This document shows, piece after piece, positions 5,390 through 26,970 of a DNA stretch of 64,000 nt. Both the position numbers and the translations under genes were made by a program. Source of the DNA: Acidovorax sp. NO-1 (GTDB lineage Bacteria > Pseudomonadota > Gammaproteobacteria > Burkholderiales > Burkholderiaceae_C); contig NZ_AGTS01000075.1 of the NCBI RefSeq assembly GCF_000238595.1, positions 1 to 64,000 on the forward strand. The letters run 5' to 3'. Under the pieces are notes generated by a model that was not told the DNA's origin, did not search any database, and saw nothing but the letters and a program-made list of their open reading frames with translations. The stretch's first letter is position 1. Every line of letters begins with the position of its first letter.

Positions 5390-6325
5390 TCAGCGCGGCA
5401 TCAGCGGCAGGCCCGCGAGCATGCCCACGGCCTGCGCAGGCAGTTCTTCGGCGTCAAAGGCCTTGTCGCCATCGGCATCCTGCACGCCGTTGGGCACCAG
5501 GCCCTTGAAGTCGAACTGGCGCGGGTCCATGAAGTGCGAGGGCACCAGGTTGCGCAGCGCCACGGCCATGTTCTCGATGCGGCCGGGGTACAGCTGCTGC
5601 CAGTCGCGCAGCATCTGGCCGATCTGCTTGCGCTGCAGGTTCTCCTGGCTGCCGCACAGCGTGCAGGGGATGATGGGGAAGTTGCGGTGCTCGGCCCAGC
5701 GGGTGAGGTCGTCTTCGGCCACGTAGGCCAGGGGGCGGATGATGAGGTGGTCGCCGCGGTCGCTCTGCACCTTGGGCGGCATGCCCTTGAGCTTGCCGCC
5801 AAAGAACATGTTCAAGAAGAAGGTCTGCAGCATGTCGTCGCGGTGGTGGCCGAGCGCAATTTTGGTGCAGCCCAGCTCGTCCGCCACGCGGTACAGGATG
5901 CCCCGGCGCAGGCGGCTGCACAGGCTGCACATGGTCTTGCCTTCGGGGATGTGCTCCTTAACGACGCTGTAGGTATCCTGCGTTTCGATGTGGAAAGGCA
6001 CGCCGACCTGGGTCAAATACTCGGGCAGCACATGGGCCGGAAAGCCCGGCTGCTTCTGGTCCAGGTTGACGGCGATCAGCTCGAACTTGTGGCCGTTGCG
6101 CTGCTGCAGCATCCGCAGCACGTCCAGCATGGCGTAGCTGTCCTTACCGCCAGACACGCACACCATCACCTTGTCGCCGTCTTCGATCAGGCCGAAATCC
6201 GTGATGGCTTGGGCGACCTGGCGAACCAGGCGCTTTTCAAGCTTGAGCGCGGCGTGGGCGGCGGCTTTTTGAGCAGCATCGTCGGCAGGTGCCGTGTCGG
6301 CGGGCAAGATAGCGTTGTCGATCAT
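5390..6325 (-). CDS. ttcA: tRNA 2-thiocytidine(32) synthetase TtcA
   Basis: 311 residues. Makes 2-thiocytidine at position 32 of certain tRNAs using ATP and an iron-sulfur cluster. The PP-loop ATP site CVSGGKDSY lies near residues 57-65. The cluster-binding pair CSLC near residue 133 and the later CTLCGSQ are both intact, as is the GHHRDD motif. N- and C-terminal extensions of 30-40 acidic or Ala-rich residues are common in Burkholderiales homologues. ATG at 6325. It lies upstream of trhP on the same strand. A palindromic repeat stands between it and metH. Confidence 0.95.
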
Positions 6326-6375
6326 GGTGGGCTGCCTGGAACGGCACTGCGTTGCCGCACTTCAGAGCGGCAACA

Positions 6376-6433
6376 ATTGCTACTAATTAGATAGCACCTG
6401 GCGCTTGACCATCAAGCGCCAGGTGCCAATTTT
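6376..6433 (+). repeat. TAGCTA/GCGCTTG palindromic repeat, copy R1
   Basis: Best-preserved copy of the family. Core arms are 14 bp and perfect, CACCTGGCGCTTGA at 6395-6408 against TCAAGCGCCAGGTG at 6412-6425 with a 3-nt loop. A left TTGCTA...ATAGC segment and a right CCAATTTT tail complete it. Located between the ttcA start and the metH 3' end. Confidence 0.85.
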
Positions 6434-6527
6434 CCTACAAACCGTTCATTCAGCGCGAATCTCTCACCCTTGGGTGGGCGTTGCAAAACCTGCAGCGCGC
6501 GAAACCGGCGCGGCCCAGACCAAAGGC

Positions 6528-6602
6528 CGCCGCGCAAGGGCCGCCCCGCCGCGCTGGCGGCGTCCCCCTTGGGGGAAGGCGCCGCAGGCGACTCAGGGGG
6601 GC
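6528..6602 (-). repeat. 3'-flanking double-hairpin repeat, copy 2
   Basis: Reverse-strand counterpart of 2359-2416. On the minus strand it reads CCCCCTGAG, a CGCC/GGCG hairpin, CCCCC-AA-GGGGG and GACGC. It begins a few bases after the metH stop, in the direction of metH transcription. Confidence 0.7.
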
Positions 6603-6609
6603 AGCTACT

Positions 6610-7674
6610 CTAGGCTTCTGCTGGGTAGAACATCTTGCGGGTGGGCACGTTCTCGACTGCCTTGGCGATGGCGCCAATATGGTCTGGCGTGGTGCCACAG
6701 CAGCCGCCCAGAATATTGACCAGCCCCTCGGCCGCGAACTCGTGCACCAGGCGGCTGGTGATCTCGGGGGTTTCGTCAAAGCCGGTGTCGCTCATCGGGT
6801 TGGGCAGGCCGGCGTTGGGGTAGCAGCTGATGAAGGTGTCCTCGGCCACCCGGTTCAGTTCCTGGATGTAGGGGCGCATCAGCGTGGCGCCCAGCGCGCA
6901 GTTCAGGCCGATGGCCAGCGGGCGCGAGTGGCGCACGCTGTGCCAGAAGGCGGTGACGGTCTGGCCGGAGAGGATGCGGCCCGATGCGTCGGTCACGGTG
7001 CCGCTGATGATCAGCGGCAGGCGCTCGCCGCTCTTGTCAAAGAACTCGTCAATCGCGAACAGCGCGGCCTTGGCGTTCAGGGTGTCGAAGATGGTCTCGA
7101 CCAGCAGCACGTCGGCGCCGCCCTCGACCAGCGCTTCGGTCTGCTCGTAGTACGCGGCGCGCAGCTGCTCAAAATCCACATTGCGCGCGCCGGGGTCGTT
7201 CACGTCGGGGCTGATACTGGCCGTCTTGGGCGTGGGGCCGAGGGCGCCTGCGACAAAGCGGGGCTTGTCGGGCGTGCTGTACTTGTCACAGGCGGCGCGG
7301 GCCAGCTGGGCAGATTTCAAATTCATCTCGCGCGCCAGGTGGGCCATCTTGTAGTCCTCCTGCGCGATGGTGGTCGCGCCGAAGGTGTTGGTCTCGATCA
7401 GGTCGGCGCCTGCGGCCAGGTAGCGCTCGTGGATGTCGCGGATCACATCGGGCCGGGTGATGCTGAGCAGCTCGTTGTTGCCCTTCACGTCACGCGGGAA
7501 GTCCTTGAACCGGTCACCTGCCCCATCCGGGCCGTTGTAGCCCTCGCCCCGGTACTGCGCCTCGCCCAGCTTGAAGCGCTGGATCATGGTGCCCATGGCG
7601 CCGTCGAGGATGACGATGCGTTGGGCGAGGATGTCGGGCAGTTGCGCGGCGCGCGTGTAGTGAAGGGCTTGCAT
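6610..7674 (-). CDS. metH: Methionine synthase, homocysteine-binding half (split MetH)
   Basis: 354 residues covering only the N-terminal homocysteine S-methyltransferase barrel of cobalamin-dependent methionine synthase. Zinc ligands are visible: C in GLNCALGA and the pair in [10 protein letters not shown]. The start [11 protein letters not shown] and the ETNTFGAT motif are typical. Full-length MetH is about 1,200 residues; the folate, B12-binding and reactivation domains are absent here and no second half flanks it. Split MetH is known in Burkholderiales and related groups, so the partner is expected elsewhere in the genome. ATG at 7674. Confidence 0.92.
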
Positions 7675-7720
7675 AGGGCGCTATTGTAGAAAGCCGGGCT
7701 AAACGGCTTTCTACCCTGGA

Positions 7721-8979
7721 CTAATTTGCCTTCATGTGTGCGAACAAGGAATGCGCCGCCCGCAGAGCTTCTTGGCGCACGGATTCATCCGCCGTGGGGA
7801 GTTCGATGCCATCCACCCCGTCTACGAACATGGGGCCACCCACATCGTCGTCGTAGCTGGAGCCATCCTCGTGAATAGCCCGGTAGTCGCCTTGGGTGAG
7901 ATCCTTACCCAGCAACTTGGCGTAGTGAAACCAGGTCCATACCTTGAGCGGATCGTCCGCGTGCCACGATTCCATCAGCTCGCGCATGGCCCGCATGTCG
8001 CCACGCTCGGCCGCCAATGCCAACCAGGCAGGCGTCCATTCATAGCGGCCTACGCGCTGCGCGAGTTCGGCGATCCACAAAGGGTCGGCACGAACCTGCG
8101 GCGCCTGCAGATCAAAGAAGCTGTCGTCGCCATAACGGTCCGCCAGCAACAGCAACGCATCGTGCTGGCCCAATGCGGCTGCGGCGTTGAAGTGGTCGCG
8201 GGCAGAGCTGCTGCGCGCGGCCCGCTCGCGCGACGCCGCAGCGCGACGCTGGACGCGCTCTGCATAGCCTCGGCCCATTCCAACTCGACGCCTGTCAGCA
8301 CCTCGCCCTTTTGCTGGCGTTCGTACCAATACAAGCCAGCCCGCGAATCGGGCACGTCGTCCATGTCTTCATCATCCTCATCGTCGTCTCCGTCCTGATG
8401 CCCCGCGTCCACGCGGGCTCCGCGCTCGATCAGAAGACCCAGCGCCAAGTGGGCGCGCCCCTCGCCCTGCTCAGCTGCCTTTTGCAAGGCTTGGCACACG
8501 AAGGGGCTATTTAGGCGCAAGGGTTCCGGATCTTCTGGCCAGGCGTGGGGGTCGTTGTCCAGCGCTGCTTCCAGTGCCTCGTAGTACGCATCGTCGCGCG
8601 GCGTTTCGCGGTACAACTCTTGGCTGCCAGAAAGCAGGACCTCGAGGATGTCTTCCCATGGCACCAGGCCCAGCGCATGCGCTGGCATGTCCGCGCACAG
8701 GGCCTGTGCCAATGGTCCGCTGCGCTCACGGGCCATGCCCAGCGCCTCGGCCCGCGCCGCGCAAGGCCCGGGATGCAAAGTGCCGTAGTGCGCCAACAGC
8801 GGCTGTGATGGCAGGGGGCACAGCAGGCCATGGGCCTTCAGCGCGGCATGGGAGCCGAGCCCCAGCGCAGCGGCCATCAGTTCATAGACGTGAGACCGCT
8901 TGACGTTGGCACGGTCGGCGCCTGCAATCGTTTGTAGGTGGGTTTGCGCCTGACGCGCAAACGAAGCGATGTTGTTCAT
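7721..8979 (-). pseudogene. Sel1/TPR-like hypothetical protein gene, apparently frameshifted
   Basis: Two overlapping minus-strand frames together read as one protein of about 418 residues. The first (ATG at 8979) begins MNNIASFARQ and includes RSHVYELMAAALG, then an Asp-run around DGDDDEDDEDMDD and Sel1-like helices (HLALGLLIERGA, GLYWYERQQKGE). It stays sensible to about EWAEA. The second frame then carries on with YAERVQRR, DHFNAAAALGQHDALLLLADRYG and ends LFAHMKAN. The switch falls at 8264-8271, where GAGGCTAT would restore the frame if it read GAGGCCTAT, implying one lost base. A sequencing error is equally possible. Sel1-like repeats mediate protein contacts; no specific role is assigned. 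Confidence 0.6.
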
Positions 8980-9195
8980 GTGAAACCTTTCTTCAGCGAG
9001 CGCGCAACGCCGGGAAAGTGCACACGTTTAAGCCACGGCAGCGCACTCTGTGAATAGAGGCCGCATGAAATCAATGAAGAGGAAGAAGAGAGAGCCTTTT
9101 TTGCTCGTGTGCAAGCAGGGTGGGCACCGTGCGGAATTGTAAGCCGGTGATTGGCAAGGCCCTCTTGATTTGACAGCATCACGCCACCCAATCAT

Positions 9196-22976: not shown

Positions 22977-23040
22977 CTACATATTTGATAGCTGTTTGCG
23001 CATGTCAGATAAGCGCTGTAGGCCGTTTTTATTCAAACCT
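22974..23040 (+). repeat. Palindromic repeat, copy R4, left of the ATPase-PIN-ligase operon
   Basis: Forward orientation: ATTAGCTAC...TTGATAGCT, a decayed core TTGCGC...AAGCGC, then GTAGGCC and an AT-rich tail. The norR stop codon is inside its first bases. It ends 25 bp before the ATPase gene. Confidence 0.75.
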
Positions 23041-23065
23041 GCACGCCGCGTAAGATGCCCTTGCC

Positions 23066-24355
23066 ATGATCGACCAACTCCACCTGCAGAACCTCAAGGC
23101 CTGGCGCGACAGCGGCCCGGTGCAACTGGCGCCCGTGACGATGCTGCTGGGCAGCAACTCGTCGGGCAAGTCCACGCTGCTGCAAAGCCTGCTGCTGCTC
23201 AAGCAGACCGTGGCCTCGCCCGACCGCACCATCCACCTGAACCTGGGCGGGGATGAGGCCAACGACTACTTTCACTTTGGCGGCTTTGATGCGGTGCTGG
23301 CACGCGGCGCGGCCGCACCGCGCCAGTTCTCCATCGCACTCAGCTTCCAGCGGCCCGAGGGCGAGCGTGTGCGCCACGGGCGCTTTGCCTGCAGCTACGG
23401 GCAGACGGCCAGCGGGGCGGTGGCCATCCAGGAATTGGAGCTGTCCACCGTGGCGCGGCGCTTCCGGGCTGTGCGGCGCGAGCGCGGCGCCTACGCGGTG
23501 TACGTGGACGACGAGCCCCGCCCGCGCGGCAAGGGCCCGCAGCTCGCGCCCGAGCGCTCCATCGCCCTCCCTGCCGAGGCCCTGGCCCTGCTGGGCAGCG
23601 ACGGCGCCCACCTGCAGGACCTGAGCCTGGCCCTGCGCCGCGAGCTGGAGGGCATCGTCTACCTCGGCCCGCTGCGCCGCCGCCCCGAGCGCGACTATGT
23701 GTGGAACAAGACGGCGCCCGGCGAGGTGGGCAGCGACGGCCACAAGGCCATCGACGCGCTGCTGGCCAACACCCTGCTGCCGTCCGAGCACCAGGGCAGC
23801 GTGCTGCGCAGCGTGTCGCACTGGCTGCAGCGCATGGGCATGGCCGAGCAGCTCAGCGTGCGCGCCGTGGGCCGATCGGGCCGCTACGAGGTGCTGGTGC
23901 ACCACGACGGCGTGGTGGCCAACCTGCGCGACGTGGGCGTGGGCGTGTCGCAGGTGCTGCCGGTGCTGGCCGTGGCCTACTGCGCACCGCCGGGCAGCAC
24001 CGTGCTGCTGGAAGAGCCCGAAATCCACCTGCACCCGCTGGCCCAGGCCGTGCTGGCCGAAATGTTTGCCGAGGTGAGCCAGCAGCGCCAGGTGCAGTTT
24101 CTCGTCGAAACCCATTCCGAGCACCTGTTCCGCCGCATGCAAACCCTGATCGCCCGGCGCCAGACCAGCACCGCGCAGTGCCGCATGCTGTTCGTCGAGC
24201 GCAAGGGGGCCGATGCCGTGCTGGTGCCGCTGGACGTGGACGAATTTGGCGCCGTGCGCAACTGGCCGCCGCGCTTTTTTGGCGACGCGATGGGCGAGGC
24301 GCGCGAGCAGGCCCGGGCACGCGCACTGCGTTTAAGGGAAACCGCCGATGGCTGA
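23066..24355 (+). CDS. ABC/SMC-type AAA ATPase (DUF3696-like), first gene of ATPase-PIN-ligase operon
   Basis: 429 residues, ATG at 23066. Walker A GSNSSGKST at residues 29-37, an ABC-like signature DVGVGVSQVLPVL near 289, Walker B TVLLEEPEIHLHP near 311 and the switch histidine in LVETHSEHL near 348. The middle (about 90-270) is a family-specific insert. The tail GAVRNWPPRFFGD resembles DUF3696. No TOPRIM or nuclease domain is fused, so it differs from OLD proteins and needs a partner effector. The PIN gene starts 8 bp inside its 3' end, implying coupled translation. Related solitary ATPases act as sensors or gates in bacterial defence pairs; that role here is inferred. Confidence 0.85.
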   Translation: MIDQLHLQNLKAWRDSGPVQLAPVTMLLGSNSSGKSTLLQSLLLLKQTVASPDRTIHLNLGGDEANDYFHFGGFDAVLARGAAAPRQFSIALSFQRPEGERVRHGRFACSYGQTASGAVAIQELELSTVARRFRAVRRERGAYAVYVDDEPRPRGKGPQLAPERSIALPAEALALLGSDGAHLQDLSLALRRELEGIVYLGPLRRRPERDYVWNKTAPGEVGSDGHKAIDALLANTLLPSEHQGSVLRSVSHWLQRMGMAEQLSVRAVGRSGRYEVLVHHDGVVANLRDVGVGVSQVLPVLAVAYCAPPGSTVLLEEPEIHLHPLAQAVLAEMFAEVSQQRQVQFLVETHSEHLFRRMQTLIARRQTSTAQCRMLFVERKGADAVLVPLDVDEFGAVRNWPPRFFGDAMGEAREQARARALRLRETADG

Positions 24356-24911
24356 GGCAGGAGCGATGCAGGCCCGCCTGGTGGACACCAATGTGCTCAT
24401 CGTCGCCAGCGCGGTCGACGAGGGCTCGCCCTTTCGCCAGGACGCCACCCCCGTGGAAGAAGCCGCGCTGCGCCAGCAGGTGTTCGACTGGCTCGAAGCC
24501 TTCGAGGCCGACCCCACGCGCCACGCCGTGCTCGACGTGGACTGGCATGTCTGCGGCGAATACCGCCACAAGCTCACCGAGCAGGACTACGGCTGGCTGG
24601 CCCTGATGCACAAGATGGATCGCGGCGAGGTGGTGTGGGTCGATGTGCTGCTCGACAAGAATGGCAACGCCGTGCTGCCGCCCGAGCTGGCCGAGGCCGT
24701 CACCGACCTGGCCGACCGCAAGATGGTGGCCGCCGCCCTCGCCGCGCTGGACGCAGGCCACGCAACCCAAATCACCAACGCCGCCGACACCGACTGGATC
24801 GACTGCCGCCAGGCCCTGCACGACGTCGGGCTGGAGGTGGAAAACCTGCTGCCCGACTGGTTGCAAGCCCGCTGGCGCCAGAAACACCCGCCCGCGCGGC
24901 GCGCAAAATAG
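24348..24911 (+). CDS. PIN-domain nuclease partner
   Basis: 187 residues, larger than a typical VapC. ATG at 24348 overlaps the ATPase stop and has AAGGGAAA upstream. PIN acidic residues: D13 in LVDTNVLI, E71 in HVCGEYRHKL, D120/D123 in VTDLADRKMVAAAL and D147/D149 in ITNAADTDW. These form the expected metal cluster of an endoribonuclease. There is no antitoxin gene; its partners are an ATPase upstream and an RNA ligase 7 bp downstream. By analogy with ATPase-gated anticodon nucleases it may cut a structured RNA such as tRNA when triggered. Target and trigger are unknown. Confidence 0.8.
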   Translation: MAEAGAMQARLVDTNVLIVASAVDEGSPFRQDATPVEEAALRQQVFDWLEAFEADPTRHAVLDVDWHVCGEYRHKLTEQDYGWLALMHKMDRGEVVWVDVLLDKNGNAVLPPELAEAVTDLADRKMVAAALAALDAGHATQITNAADTDWIDCRQALHDVGLEVENLLPDWLQARWRQKHPPARRAK

Positions 24912-24918
24912 AACACCT

Positions 24919-25599
24919 ATGTCCGAAGATTTCTTCCGCTTCCCCCACACCCCCCACATCGCCTGGCTGGCCACGGGCGAGCCGCGCGACGACAAAGTGC
25001 TCTCGCCCGCCGAGGCCGAGGACATCCTCAGCGGCCCTGTGGTGCTGGAGGAAAAGCTCGACGGCGCCAACCTGGGCTTCTCGGTCTCGCCCGACGGCGT
25101 GCTGCGCGCCCAGAACCGGGGCCAGTACCTGCCCCAACCCTTCCACGGCCAGTTCGCCCGCCTGGGCCCCTGGCTGGCCGCGCACGAAGACAAGCTGTTC
25201 GACGCCCTGGGGACGCACCTGGTGGCCTTTGGCGAATGGTGCGCCGCGCGCCACTCGCTCGACTACGCCACCCTGCCCGACTGGTGGATGCTGTTCGACG
25301 TGTACGACCGCCAGGAACAGCGCTTCTGGAGCACCCAGCGGCGCAACGCCTGGGCCGCGCAGATGGGCTTCAACACCGTGCCCTGCCTGTACGCGGGCGA
25401 GGTCACGCTGGACCAGCTGCGCGACTGGGTGCACGCCCACGACAGCCAGTTCCGCCAGGGCCACCTCGAAGGCATCGTGGTGCGGCGCGAAAACGCCGAC
25501 TGGCTGGAGAACCGCGCCAAACTGGTGCGGGCGGACTTCACGCAGACGATTGATGCGCACTGGCGCTCACGGGCGCTGGAGTGGAACCGGGTGGTGTGA
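24919..25599 (+). CDS. Rnl2-like ATP-dependent RNA ligase
   Basis: 226 residues, ATG at 24919, 7 bp after the PIN gene. Nucleotidyltransferase motifs in order: I EEKLDG with the AMP-accepting Lys46, Ia AQNRGQY near 65, III FGEW near 104, IIIa LFDVYD near 125, IV LEGIVVRR near 183 and V AKLVRADF near 200. The size equals the catalytic domain alone, without the C-terminal domain of T4 Rnl2. It should seal 3'-OH/5'-phosphate RNA ends. Position in a nuclease operon suggests it reseals RNA cut by the PIN protein or marks the operon as an RNA repair unit. The operon ends just before an inverted repeat copy. Confidence 0.85.
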   Translation: MSEDFFRFPHTPHIAWLATGEPRDDKVLSPAEAEDILSGPVVLEEKLDGANLGFSVSPDGVLRAQNRGQYLPQPFHGQFARLGPWLAAHEDKLFDALGTHLVAFGEWCAARHSLDYATLPDWWMLFDVYDRQEQRFWSTQRRNAWAAQMGFNTVPCLYAGEVTLDQLRDWVHAHDSQFRQGHLEGIVVRRENADWLENRAKLVRADFTQTIDAHWRSRALEWNRVV

Positions 25600-25651
25600 G
25601 GAAGGGAACGAACCCATCCGGCGTGCCAGCACGCCCAGCCGCTCGGGCGGC

Positions 25652-25722
25652 ATAAAGTTTTGGTCAAAACGGCTTCAAGCGCTTGCTCATCAAGCGCCAA
25701 TAGCTATTATTTTGGTAGCGCC
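25652..25722 (-). repeat. Palindromic repeat, copy R5, right of the ATPase-PIN-ligase operon
   Basis: Reverse orientation: AAAGTTTTGGTCAAAACGGC, core CAAGCGCTTG...CATCAAGCGCCA, then ATAGCTATTATTTTGGTAGCG. Together with R4 it brackets the three-gene operon as an inverted pair. Confidence 0.8.
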
Positions 25723-25770
25723 AGTTGAACAGTGGCCCGGCCCGCAGCATTCCCCGCCACAATGCCGGAC

Positions 25771-26970
25771 ATGATCACCCTTCAAGACATCCAGGCCGCC
25801 GCCACCCGCCTACAAGGCCAGGTGCTGGACACGCCGTGTGTGGAATCCCGCACGCTCTCGCAGATCGTGGGCGCGCAGGTGTTCCTCAAATTCGAAAATC
25901 TGCAGTTCACTGCCTCGTTCAAGGAGCGCGGCGCCTGCAACAAGCTCACGCTGCTCACGCCCGAGGAGCGCGCGCACGGCGTGGTGGCCATGAGCGCGGG
26001 CAACCATGCCCAGGGCGTGGCCTACCACGCGCAGCGGCTGGGCCTGCGCGCCGTGATCGTGATGCCGCGCTTCACGCCCGGCGTGAAGGTGGAGCGCACG
26101 CGCGGCTTTGGCGCCGAGGTGGTGCTGCACGGCGACACGCTGGAAGAAGCGCGCGCCCACGCCTACATGCTGTCTGACACACAGGGCCTGACTTTTGTGC
26201 ACCCCTACGACGACGAGGCCGTGGCTGCGGGCCAGGGCACGCTGGCGCTGGAGATGCTGCAGGCCGTGCCCGACCTGGACACGCTGGTGATCGCCGTGGG
26301 GGGAGGCGGGCTGATTGCCGGCGTGGCCACCGCCGCCAAGGCGATCCAGCCCGGCATCGAGATCGTCGGTGTGCAGACCGCACGCTTTCCGGCGATGGTG
26401 AACGCCGTCAAGGGCACGCACCACCCCCAGGGCACATCCACCATTGCCGAGGGCATTGCGGTGGGCACGCCGGGCAAGATCACGCAGGAGGTGGTCAGGC
26501 GCCTGGTGGACGACCTGGTGCTGGTGGACGAAGGCGACATCGAGCAGGCAGTGCTGATGCTGCTCGAAATCGAAAAGACGCTGGTGGAGGGTGCGGGGGC
26601 CGCCGGGCTGGCCGCACTGGTGCGCTACCCCGAGCGCTTCAAGGGCAAGCGCGTGGGCCTGGTGCTGTGCGGCGGCAACATCGACCCGCTGCTGCTGGCC
26701 GCCATCATCGAGCGCGGGATGGTGCGCTCCGGGCGCCTGGCGCGCATCAAGGTGAGCGCGCGCGACGTGCCCGGCGTGCTGGCACGCATCACCGCCACGG
26801 TGGCCGACGCGGGCGCCAATATTGAAGAGGTGCACCACCAGCGCGCCTTCACCATGCTGGCCGCGCAGAACGTGGAGATCGAACTGGTGCTGCAGACCCG
26901 GGGCAAGGCGCACGTGGATGAAGTGCTGGCCCAGCTGCGCACAGCCGGCATGCAGGCCGACCTGATCTGA
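25771..26970 (+). CDS. ilvA: Threonine ammonia-lyase (dehydratase) with C-terminal ACT domain
   Basis: 399 residues. PLP enzyme turning threonine into 2-oxobutyrate for isoleucine synthesis or catabolism. The PLP lysine is in TASFKERGA near residue 50; the phosphate loop VGGGGLIAG falls near 175. The last 80 residues are one ACT-like domain (VPGVLARITATVADAGANIEEV) in place of the two larger regulatory repeats of E. coli IlvA, so allostery may differ. ATG at 25771 is chosen; in-frame ATG at 25762 is 9 bp upstream. It could equally be a TdcB-type catabolic enzyme. Confidence 0.9.
   Translation: MITLQDIQAAATRLQGQVLDTPCVESRTLSQIVGAQVFLKFENLQFTASFKERGACNKLTLLTPEERAHGVVAMSAGNHAQGVAYHAQRLGLRAVIVMPRFTPGVKVERTRGFGAEVVLHGDTLEEARAHAYMLSDTQGLTFVHPYDDEAVAAGQGTLALEMLQAVPDLDTLVIAVGGGGLIAGVATAAKAIQPGIEIVGVQTARFPAMVNAVKGTHHPQGTSTIAEGIAVGTPGKITQEVVRRLVDDLVLVDEGDIEQAVLMLLEIEKTLVEGAGAAGLAALVRYPERFKGKRVGLVLCGGNIDPLLLAAIIERGMVRSGRLARIKVSARDVPGVLARITATVADAGANIEEVHHQRAFTMLAAQNVEIELVLQTRGKAHVDEVLAQLRTAGMQADLI

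Follow-up and report, generated by a model that had tools for sequence, protein, structure and literature searches.

The stretch of DNA analyzed here, 64,000 nucleotides of Acidovorax sp. NO-1 (contig NZ_AGTS01000075.1; hereafter the window), carries a row of three genes that encode an ATPase, a PIN nuclease, and an RNA ligase. The trio, all on the plus strand, is flanked by norR and by an ilvA-like gene for threonine dehydratase (the flanking names are our own reading of the translations). As the original prediction had it, and at the same coordinates, the ATPase and PIN genes overlap by 8 bp and a gap of 7 bp separates the PIN and ligase genes. No gene intervenes at either junction, and the unit therefore contains no antitoxin gene. 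The window contains no tRNA genes, and an Rfam scan returned three matches, each under its gathering score. The features of the unit are listed below. The names Walker A, Walker B, and switch-His, like those of the ligase motifs, are ones that we take to apply, and K46 of the ligase is presumably the adenylation lysine, as in its family.

23066-24355, + strand: ATPase, 429 amino acids (aa), ABC/SMC-like (AAA_21/AAA_15) with a C-terminal DUF3696; best PADLOC match HEC-03B
23150-23176, + strand: Walker A loop of the ATPase, residues 29-37; G29, N31, G34, K35, and S36 in 80/80 trio loci
24005-24022, + strand: Walker B of the ATPase, residues 314-319; E316, P318, and E319 in 80/80
24107-24124, + strand: switch-His region of the ATPase, residues 348-353; E348, H350, S351, and E352 in 80/80, H353 in 79/80
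24176-24310, + strand: DUF3696 segment of the ATPase, residues 371-415 (E 1.4e-7); lies within the ATPase segment that covaries best with PIN
24348-24911, + strand: PIN nuclease, 187 aa, PADLOC HEC-03A; alternative start at 24366
24384-24386, + strand: PIN acid D13 (DTN motif); 68/68 family members, 79/80 loci
24558-24560, + strand: PIN acid E71; 68/68 family members, 80/80 loci
24705-24716, + strand: PIN acids D120 and D123; 68/68 family members, 80/80 loci
24919-25599, + strand: RNA ligase, 226 aa, PF09414; nucleotidyltransferase domain without a separate C-terminal domain
25054-25056, + strand: ligase K46 (KxDG), presumed adenylation lysine; 50/50
25234-25236, + strand: ligase E106 (FGEW motif); 50/50
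25468-25473, + strand: ligase E184-G185; 50/50
25519-25521, + strand: ligase K201 (KLVR motif); 50/50

The reading of the first protein as an ABC/SMC-like ATPase with both Walker motifs and a switch histidine holds up. AAA_21, AAA_15, and DUF3696 are its only Pfam matches above the cutoffs, and G29, N31, G34, K35, and S36, together with E316, P318, E319, and H350, are identical in all 80 aligned trio loci. Its best match among the PADLOC models is HEC-03B (E 1.1e-84), followed by PDC-M55A and NsnB; PtuA models match it weakly (E 1.3e-5, and E 5.1e-10 in PADLOC). At one other locus (L092:5875-7471), in a metagenome-assembled genome (MAG) of the Methylococcales, the ATPase is broken into three open frames.

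The second protein had been described as a 187-residue PIN protein with an intact acidic cluster and without an antitoxin gene, which our analysis bears out. The window protein itself has no Pfam match above a cutoff, and its assignment as PIN is drawn from profile comparison. Specifically, weak PIN_3 matches (E up to 0.1, best 0.0039) occur in 13 of the 68 members of its family, and the family profile matches one made from PF13470 homologues at other loci (26 open frames, chosen from 30 loci and including two or more that are not PIN-like) with 96.9% probability (E 1.6e-10); two unrelated profiles, serving as controls, score 0.2% and 0.5% against it. D13, D63, E71, D120, and D123 are invariant in 68/68 family members. 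The acidic residues and Lys46 of the ligase, on which the original prediction had staked its idea beforehand, are conserved in 68/68 and 50/50 sequences, and one PIN of 80 is without D13. The PADLOC HEC-03A profile matches the window PIN at E 1.1e-7 and also matches all 68 members of the alignment, while a PDB sequence search with the PIN protein gave nothing meaningful. In two Nitrococcus MAGs (L115 and L116) the PIN frame is interrupted, and in the second of these no ATPase was detected.

Although the original prediction knew of no named system for this set of genes, the ATPase and PIN together correspond to HEC-03 (Hma-embedded candidate), a candidate system listed in PADLOC; both profiles match, and the genes adjoin. 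For the whole trio we found no description, in a literature search that was thin for subscription papers and RNA-repair surveys. The accessible parts of the literature searched likewise gave no description of HEC-03 function, and the word HEC is not present in the text of the original PADLOC paper.

The third protein matches PF09414 (E 2.8e-34) over residues 40 to 203 of its 226 aa, and K46, D48, G49, R67, E106, F126-D127, E184-G185, and K201 are invariant in 50 of 50 ligases. No PADLOC model matches it. It had been called Rnl2-like on the strength of its motifs; the family and the motifs stand, but the label is loose. In the T4 Rnl2 family, a C-terminal domain follows the nucleotidyltransferase domain, and the window protein has the nucleotidyltransferase motifs with no such domain after them. 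A PDB sequence search with the ligase gave weak matches (best 3qwu, E 6.6e-6), none of them named T4 Rnl2.

The association of these genes recurs well beyond Acidovorax. Among the best 80 of 272 ligase-encoding stretches in 84,980 species genomes, PIN lies directly upstream of the ligase in all 80 loci (a contig end truncates one of them, and frames are interrupted in two), a recurrence of gene order that is more than chance. An ATPase like that of the window was found in 61 of the 80, and it is absent from 14 of the 72 loci that have at least 1.5 kb upstream of PIN. Because these loci were selected by their ligase, are the best of 272, and are partly redundant, they overstate the linkage of the ligase. 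Within the 299 genomes of the family, ligase matches occur in 29: the window's own, 10 with a close full-length ligase, 2 with fragments only, 15 with members of a sister group, and 1 weak match. In the 10 close genomes PIN is directly upstream of the ligase every time, and the ATPase is present in 8. When PIN led the search instead, in overlapping samples of 369 class and 398 phylum genomes, it yielded 17 distinct carriers besides the window's genome; the ATPase adjoins PIN in 17/17, and the ligase is present in 11/17. The ligase often accompanies the listed ATPase-PIN pair as a third gene. In the class sample, the PADLOC HEC-03A profile and our own PIN profile recover the same five other genomes. 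Named carriers include Betaproteobacteria, Gammaproteobacteria, Desulfuromonadales, a Rhodococcus plasmid, and MAGs labeled Chlorobiaceae and Verrucomicrobia; E. coli genomes searched with the DNA of a Lelliottia trio gave no match. In plasmid records the window PIN had no matches and its Aeromonas relative had 12, and in viral contigs 47 pattern matches to the PIN profile yielded no confirmed case. The genes are also tightly spaced, with a median gap of -4 bp between ATPase and PIN (at most 25 bp in 81/89) and of 0 bp between PIN and ligase (at most 25 bp in 100/101), counted with L032, L033, L034, L132, L115, L116, and L092 set aside.

Three architectures emerge, namely, ATPase-PIN-ligase, ATPase-PIN without a ligase, and PIN-ligase without an ATPase. 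The expectation that the trio would be kept together is thus borne out for PIN (80/80) and largely for the ATPase (61/80), but the ligase is missing from 6 of the 17 PIN-led carriers and the ATPase from a whole clade. In a PIN tree of 105 rows (from which the duplicates L032, L033, L034, and L132, the interrupted L115 and L116, and PIN rows under 150 aa were omitted), absence of the ligase, seen in seven rows, requires five changes, and four ligase-less loci (L149, L150, L177, and L178) branch basally in one half of the tree when it is rooted at the midpoint. At L149, the upstream side has a 949-aa frame that starts like a helicase and the downstream side a 1,072-aa frame that we read as a methylase; a ligase-less pair on an Acinetobacter soli plasmid is accompanied by annotated helicase and N-6 methylase genes and, downstream, by an annotated HNH gene. 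The ATPase-less PIN-ligase loci, 14 in number, form one PIN clade (support 100/99), and 13 of their ligases form one clade. We considered whether an ATPase might act from elsewhere in such genomes and rejected this, as no full-length family ATPase was found across 10 of them. Six partial matches occur in 4 of the 10 genomes and none in the other 6; two fall within a single 561-codon frame, and the best has an E value of 6e-18 (65.5 bits).

Many relatives of the trio reside among defense genes. At L041 and similar loci, the genes are arranged like an operon, with a methylase of 1,300 to 1,425 aa and a helicase on the upstream side and an HNH protein on the downstream side. Domain scans of L041 and L105 identify the methylase as Eco57I/DrmMI-like, the helicase as DpdE/DrmD/HmaA-like, and the HNH protein as HNH_2, with the L041 helicase matching DpdE and DrmD better than HmaA. 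Downstream at L117 is a DrmD/DrmA-like gene, and L105 has two Dsr1-like genes. Across the 80 loci, methylase relatives occur in 22, HNH relatives in 21, and any of six defense queries in 26 (in 16 of 40 less redundant loci); two sources of the queries, L105 and L117, are themselves among the 80. In 12 of the 80, the methylase match ends no more than 150 bp upstream of the ATPase. The control DNA, namely 100 kb from the genome of the window and eight ilvA loci from relatives, gave no match to any of the six queries. In addition, we scanned with PADLOC the nearest neighbors on each side (73 of 148) at 37 of 40 loci, the flanks of L081, L093, and L107 being short. Methylase models matched 6 neighbors, HNH models matched 6, and 152 models matched overall. 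By comparison, methylase and HNH models matched none of 73 control genes from the window's genome, in which 23 models, helicase models included, had single matches. As loci were oriented and open reading frames called by a simple script, some of the neighbors may be misread frames. Prokaryotic Argonaute models match two of the neighbor proteins at these 37 loci, and a ZorD model matches two. Aeromonas conjugative plasmids carry the trio between AbiE/Hok genes and a GTPase-associated set. The anticipated clustering with defense genes is seen on these plasmids and in 26 of 80 loci, a minority. A ligase remnant was seen at the end of a cluster of methylase, AAA ATPase, DUF4276, and helicase genes (L042:1981-10567), which resembles a type III restriction set accompanied by an AbiL-like pair (the names, except DUF4276, are our own reading).

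The site occupied in the window speaks to mobility. In three of six ilvA loci from the same genus (L214, L215, and L220), norR adjoins ilvA without the trio, and the other three stretches have no norR in range. Two genomes of the genus that lack a ligase match (G085 and G262) show this empty arrangement. On this comparison, the norR-ilvA junction (window 22977-25773) is an insertion site. In several other carriers, extra DNA is found between the trio and ilvA. The trio is a conserved, mobile unit, and probably an anti-phage one.

Cassettes of the trio are exchanged. The PIN tree divides at a fully supported branch into type A, to which the window belongs, and type B. Among 80 complete trio loci (34 of type A and 46 of type B), the ATPase averages 0.57 identity within a type and 0.33 between types, PIN 0.52 and 0.24, and the ligase 0.60 in both comparisons. 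Mapped onto the ligase tree (made by a quick method, with long branches and with weak support at 34 of 92 inner branches), the A/B label has to change 15 times, and starred branches force at least five of these changes. Pairwise distances, calculated with L032, L033, L034, L132, L115, L116, L092, L051, L052, L055, and incomplete loci omitted, correlate strongly between ATPase and PIN (rho 0.85 overall), while those of the ligase barely correlate (0.17 with the ATPase and 0.13 with PIN; null maxima, 0.13 and 0.14). Within types, all three distances correlate (0.37 to 0.53 in A, 0.68 to 0.75 in B), and therefore units are coinherited for a time and then exchanged.

Individual pairs illustrate this exchange. 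Between L077 and L123 the ligases are 89% identical, the ATPases 34%, and the PINs 22%, and DNA similarity begins at the start of the ligase; 18 pairs of this kind passed our thresholds. The one clean nuclease swap among the 80 is that between L110 (Pigmentiphaga; 6131-8687) and L125 (Thauera; 6135-8696), where the ATPases are 92% identical and the ligases 96%, but the PINs only 30%. In 100-base steps, DNA identity is 0.87 to 0.96 up to position 7300, 0.61 over 7301-7500, 0.45 to 0.52 in the remaining PIN, and 0.84 to 0.98 over 8001-9000; the first blastn match stops at 7413, and similarity resumes at 8003. The swapped piece takes in the C-terminal DUF3696 segment, such that essentially only the nuclease and the tail of the ATPase differ. 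Furthermore, among seven segments of the ATPase, the DUF3696 segment is the best correlate of PIN in both types (A, 0.57 versus 0.38 to 0.48; B, 0.78 versus 0.44 to 0.67), and in type B it is also the best correlate of the ligase. The idea that this segment docks the nuclease draws on the single L110/L125 exchange and on a correlation that closeness along the DNA could also produce.

Taken together, what the sequences support are the protein families, their pairing, the catalytic residues, the tight gene order, the defense neighbors of many relatives, and the exchange of cassettes. The explanation to which we lean, with somewhat more confidence than doubt, is that of a mobile, probably anti-phage module that joins HEC-03, comprising a sensor ATPase and a PIN nuclease, to a dedicated RNA ligase. 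Under this explanation, the ATPase would keep PIN inactive until a phage cue releases it. PIN might then hydrolyze an RNA of the host or phage (perhaps a tRNA) in a metal-dependent manner, leaving a 5'-phosphate and a 3'-hydroxyl, and the ligase could reseal the cuts without a kinase or phosphatase, making leaky cutting harmless and arrest reversible. The ends proposed for PIN are those that this class of ligase needs. Given that like ligases serve very different PINs, the ligase more likely acts on the cut RNA than through binding of PIN. One review describes the products of VapC as 3'-OH and 5'-phosphate ends (PMC7180214); if that view is right, PIN cuts would be sealable without end healing. 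A second review states that ATP-grasp RNA ligases require a 5'-phosphate and a 3'-OH (PMC7824862), and a further source reports that RNase P enzymes, including a PIN-like form, leave these ends (PMC10652100). A sister group of ligases (L044, L045, L046, L047, and L136; about 32 to 36% identical, 286 to 350 aa) provides a useful comparison. In 5/5 loci examined (4 of 15 family genomes plus one plasmid), the ligase is directly followed by a protein with HD and AAA_33 domains, a putative end-healing enzyme of phosphatase-kinase type, and the two may make up a two-gene repair set. No HD/AAA_33 relatives were found in 80 trio loci, in 15 further loci, or in the window, over flanks of varying length, which fittingly agrees with sealing that would need no end healing.

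Several observations weigh against this explanation. The chemistry of PIN cleavage is disputed: according to one paper the products of VapC carry a 5'-OH (PMC6459853), an end not directly sealable by such a ligase, and according to another the expression of VapC activates the Rtc operon, the signal for which it takes to be tRNA fragments with a cyclic phosphate (PMC7790460). Because the ligase is without a separate C-terminal domain, it is uncertain whether it has full sealing activity. The absence of the ligase from 6 of 17 carriers, along with that of the ATPase from a 14-locus clade, means that no fixed three-part mechanism operates everywhere, and in the PIN of an Accumulibacter MAG (L085) glycine replaces D13, the only such row in the 80-locus alignment. 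Finally, 54 of the 80 loci have none of the six queried defense families, where just 48 of the 80 span 5 kb on both sides of the ligase, and the window copy itself lies outside any defense island.

Among the alternatives, the one that fares best holds that the ligase is a repair antitoxin. The core would then be PIN and ligase as a toxin and its antidote, with the antidote resealing the cuts made by the toxin and the ATPase added as a trigger. We regard this as rather unlikely, even though the ATPase-less clade is well supported, 10 of its genomes gave no full-length family ATPase elsewhere, and the phylogeny of the ligase is not matched to PIN type. Against it, ATPase-PIN pairs without a ligase are common, and the basal position of four of them in one half of the PIN tree suggests that the ATPase may be the older controller. 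A more elaborate version, which we would put slightly ahead as a tentative possibility, is that a conserved ligase neutralizes exchanged PINs by resealing, the ATPase being a swappable trigger whose DUF3696 segment docks the matching nuclease.

Alternatively, the ligase could guard the host against RNA damage generally, its link to HEC-03 being merely a matter of common defense islands. Exchange of the ligase between ATPase-PIN types would suit this account. So would a phage contig from IMG/VR (L130), where the ligase (7998-8663, 49 to 51% identical) is surrounded by small phage-like genes and neither PIN nor ATPase was found across 16.6 kb of sequence, and the distant ligase relatives in 15 of 50,697 phage records, all below 60% identity. 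Yet PIN sits directly upstream of the ligase in 80/80 loci at a median gap of 0 bp, in the ATPase-less clade as well, which is too tight for shared islands alone, and we consider general protection unlikely. It is more doubtful still that the trio is a housekeeping or stress unit for RNA processing. The norR-ilvA setting of the window copy, and that of an ATPase-less locus (L034) among genes that we read as housekeeping, could be taken that way. However, the distribution is sparse (in the family, a close full-length ligase in the window's own genome and 10 of 298 others) and marked by conjugative plasmids, defense neighbors, remnants, and empty sites; a vertically inherited housekeeping gene was rejected on account of this sparse, mobile distribution. 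The least probable account, that the ligase is a phage-derived counter-defense gene directed against the anticodon nucleases of rivals rather than working with PIN, has in its favor the phage contig with the ligase alone, where resealing would be a possible counter-defense, but it sits poorly with three confirmed viral-contig loci (one with the whole trio) versus 272 in genomes, both searches having been pattern led.

If the module that we favor is right, a single gene row encodes the enzymes that cut and mend one and the same RNA, and reversible RNA cleavage in phage defense becomes directly testable in a laboratory strain. Should the ligase instead be a repair antitoxin, the antidote would mend damage rather than bind the toxin, within a single defense operon. 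Natural swaps of the nuclease with a little-changed ligase offer ready-made pairs with which to ask whether the ligase recognizes RNA or nuclease, and the ATPase-less clade offers cutter and mender as a pair by themselves. The observations that motivated this work are confirmed, and their interpretation, as a system of RNA cleavage and repair or defense, is partly supported.

Several known systems resemble the trio in part. Like the trio, Septu (PtuAB) pairs an OLD/ABC-like ATPase with a nuclease, but PtuB is an HNH DNase whereas the partner in the window is PIN, and we rejected Septu on that ground; HNH relatives occur close to 21 of the 80 loci, and none occurs at the window. The anticodon nucleases PrrC and RloC, opposed by T4 Pnkp and Rnl1, resemble the trio in concept, as an ATPase-gated RNA cutter countered by an RNA ligase. 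There, however, a HEPN-type nuclease is fused to the ATPase and repair is on the phage side, while here PIN is encoded by a separate gene and the ligase is in the same gene row. No HEPN domain is among the Pfam matches of the ATPase above the cutoffs, so this identification was rejected, and PrrC/RloC, which the original prediction had offered as a model, serves poorly since HEPN-type cuts need end healing. VapBC has the PIN fold and its acids in common with the trio; the unit has no VapB-type gene, which led us to reject a classic VapBC, and the partners of PIN here are the ATPase, the ligase, or both. The sister pair of RNA ligase and HD/AAA_33 protein belongs to the same Pfam ligase family, with a putative end-healing enzyme rather than a nuclease as the partner. 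Reversal of MazF cuts by RtcB is another reported case of an RNA ligase undoing toxin damage, as proposed here, but with another ligase class, another end chemistry, and not in one operon. DS-3 and DS-5 of DefensePredictor are PIN nucleases whose catalytic residues are reported to be required for phage defense; DS-3 is a single protein, DS-5 pairs with a DUF5830 protein, and the word ligase is absent from the text consulted. HEC-03 itself takes its name from embedding in an Hma-type helicase-methylase cluster. Some relatives do lie beside helicase and methylase genes (as in the clusters of L041 and L105), unlike the window copy between norR and ilvA. PADLOC, which lists HEC-03, gave no match for the ligase. 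What is provisionally new, then, is a conserved third gene, so far unlisted, and a pattern of exchange on an already listed candidate pair.

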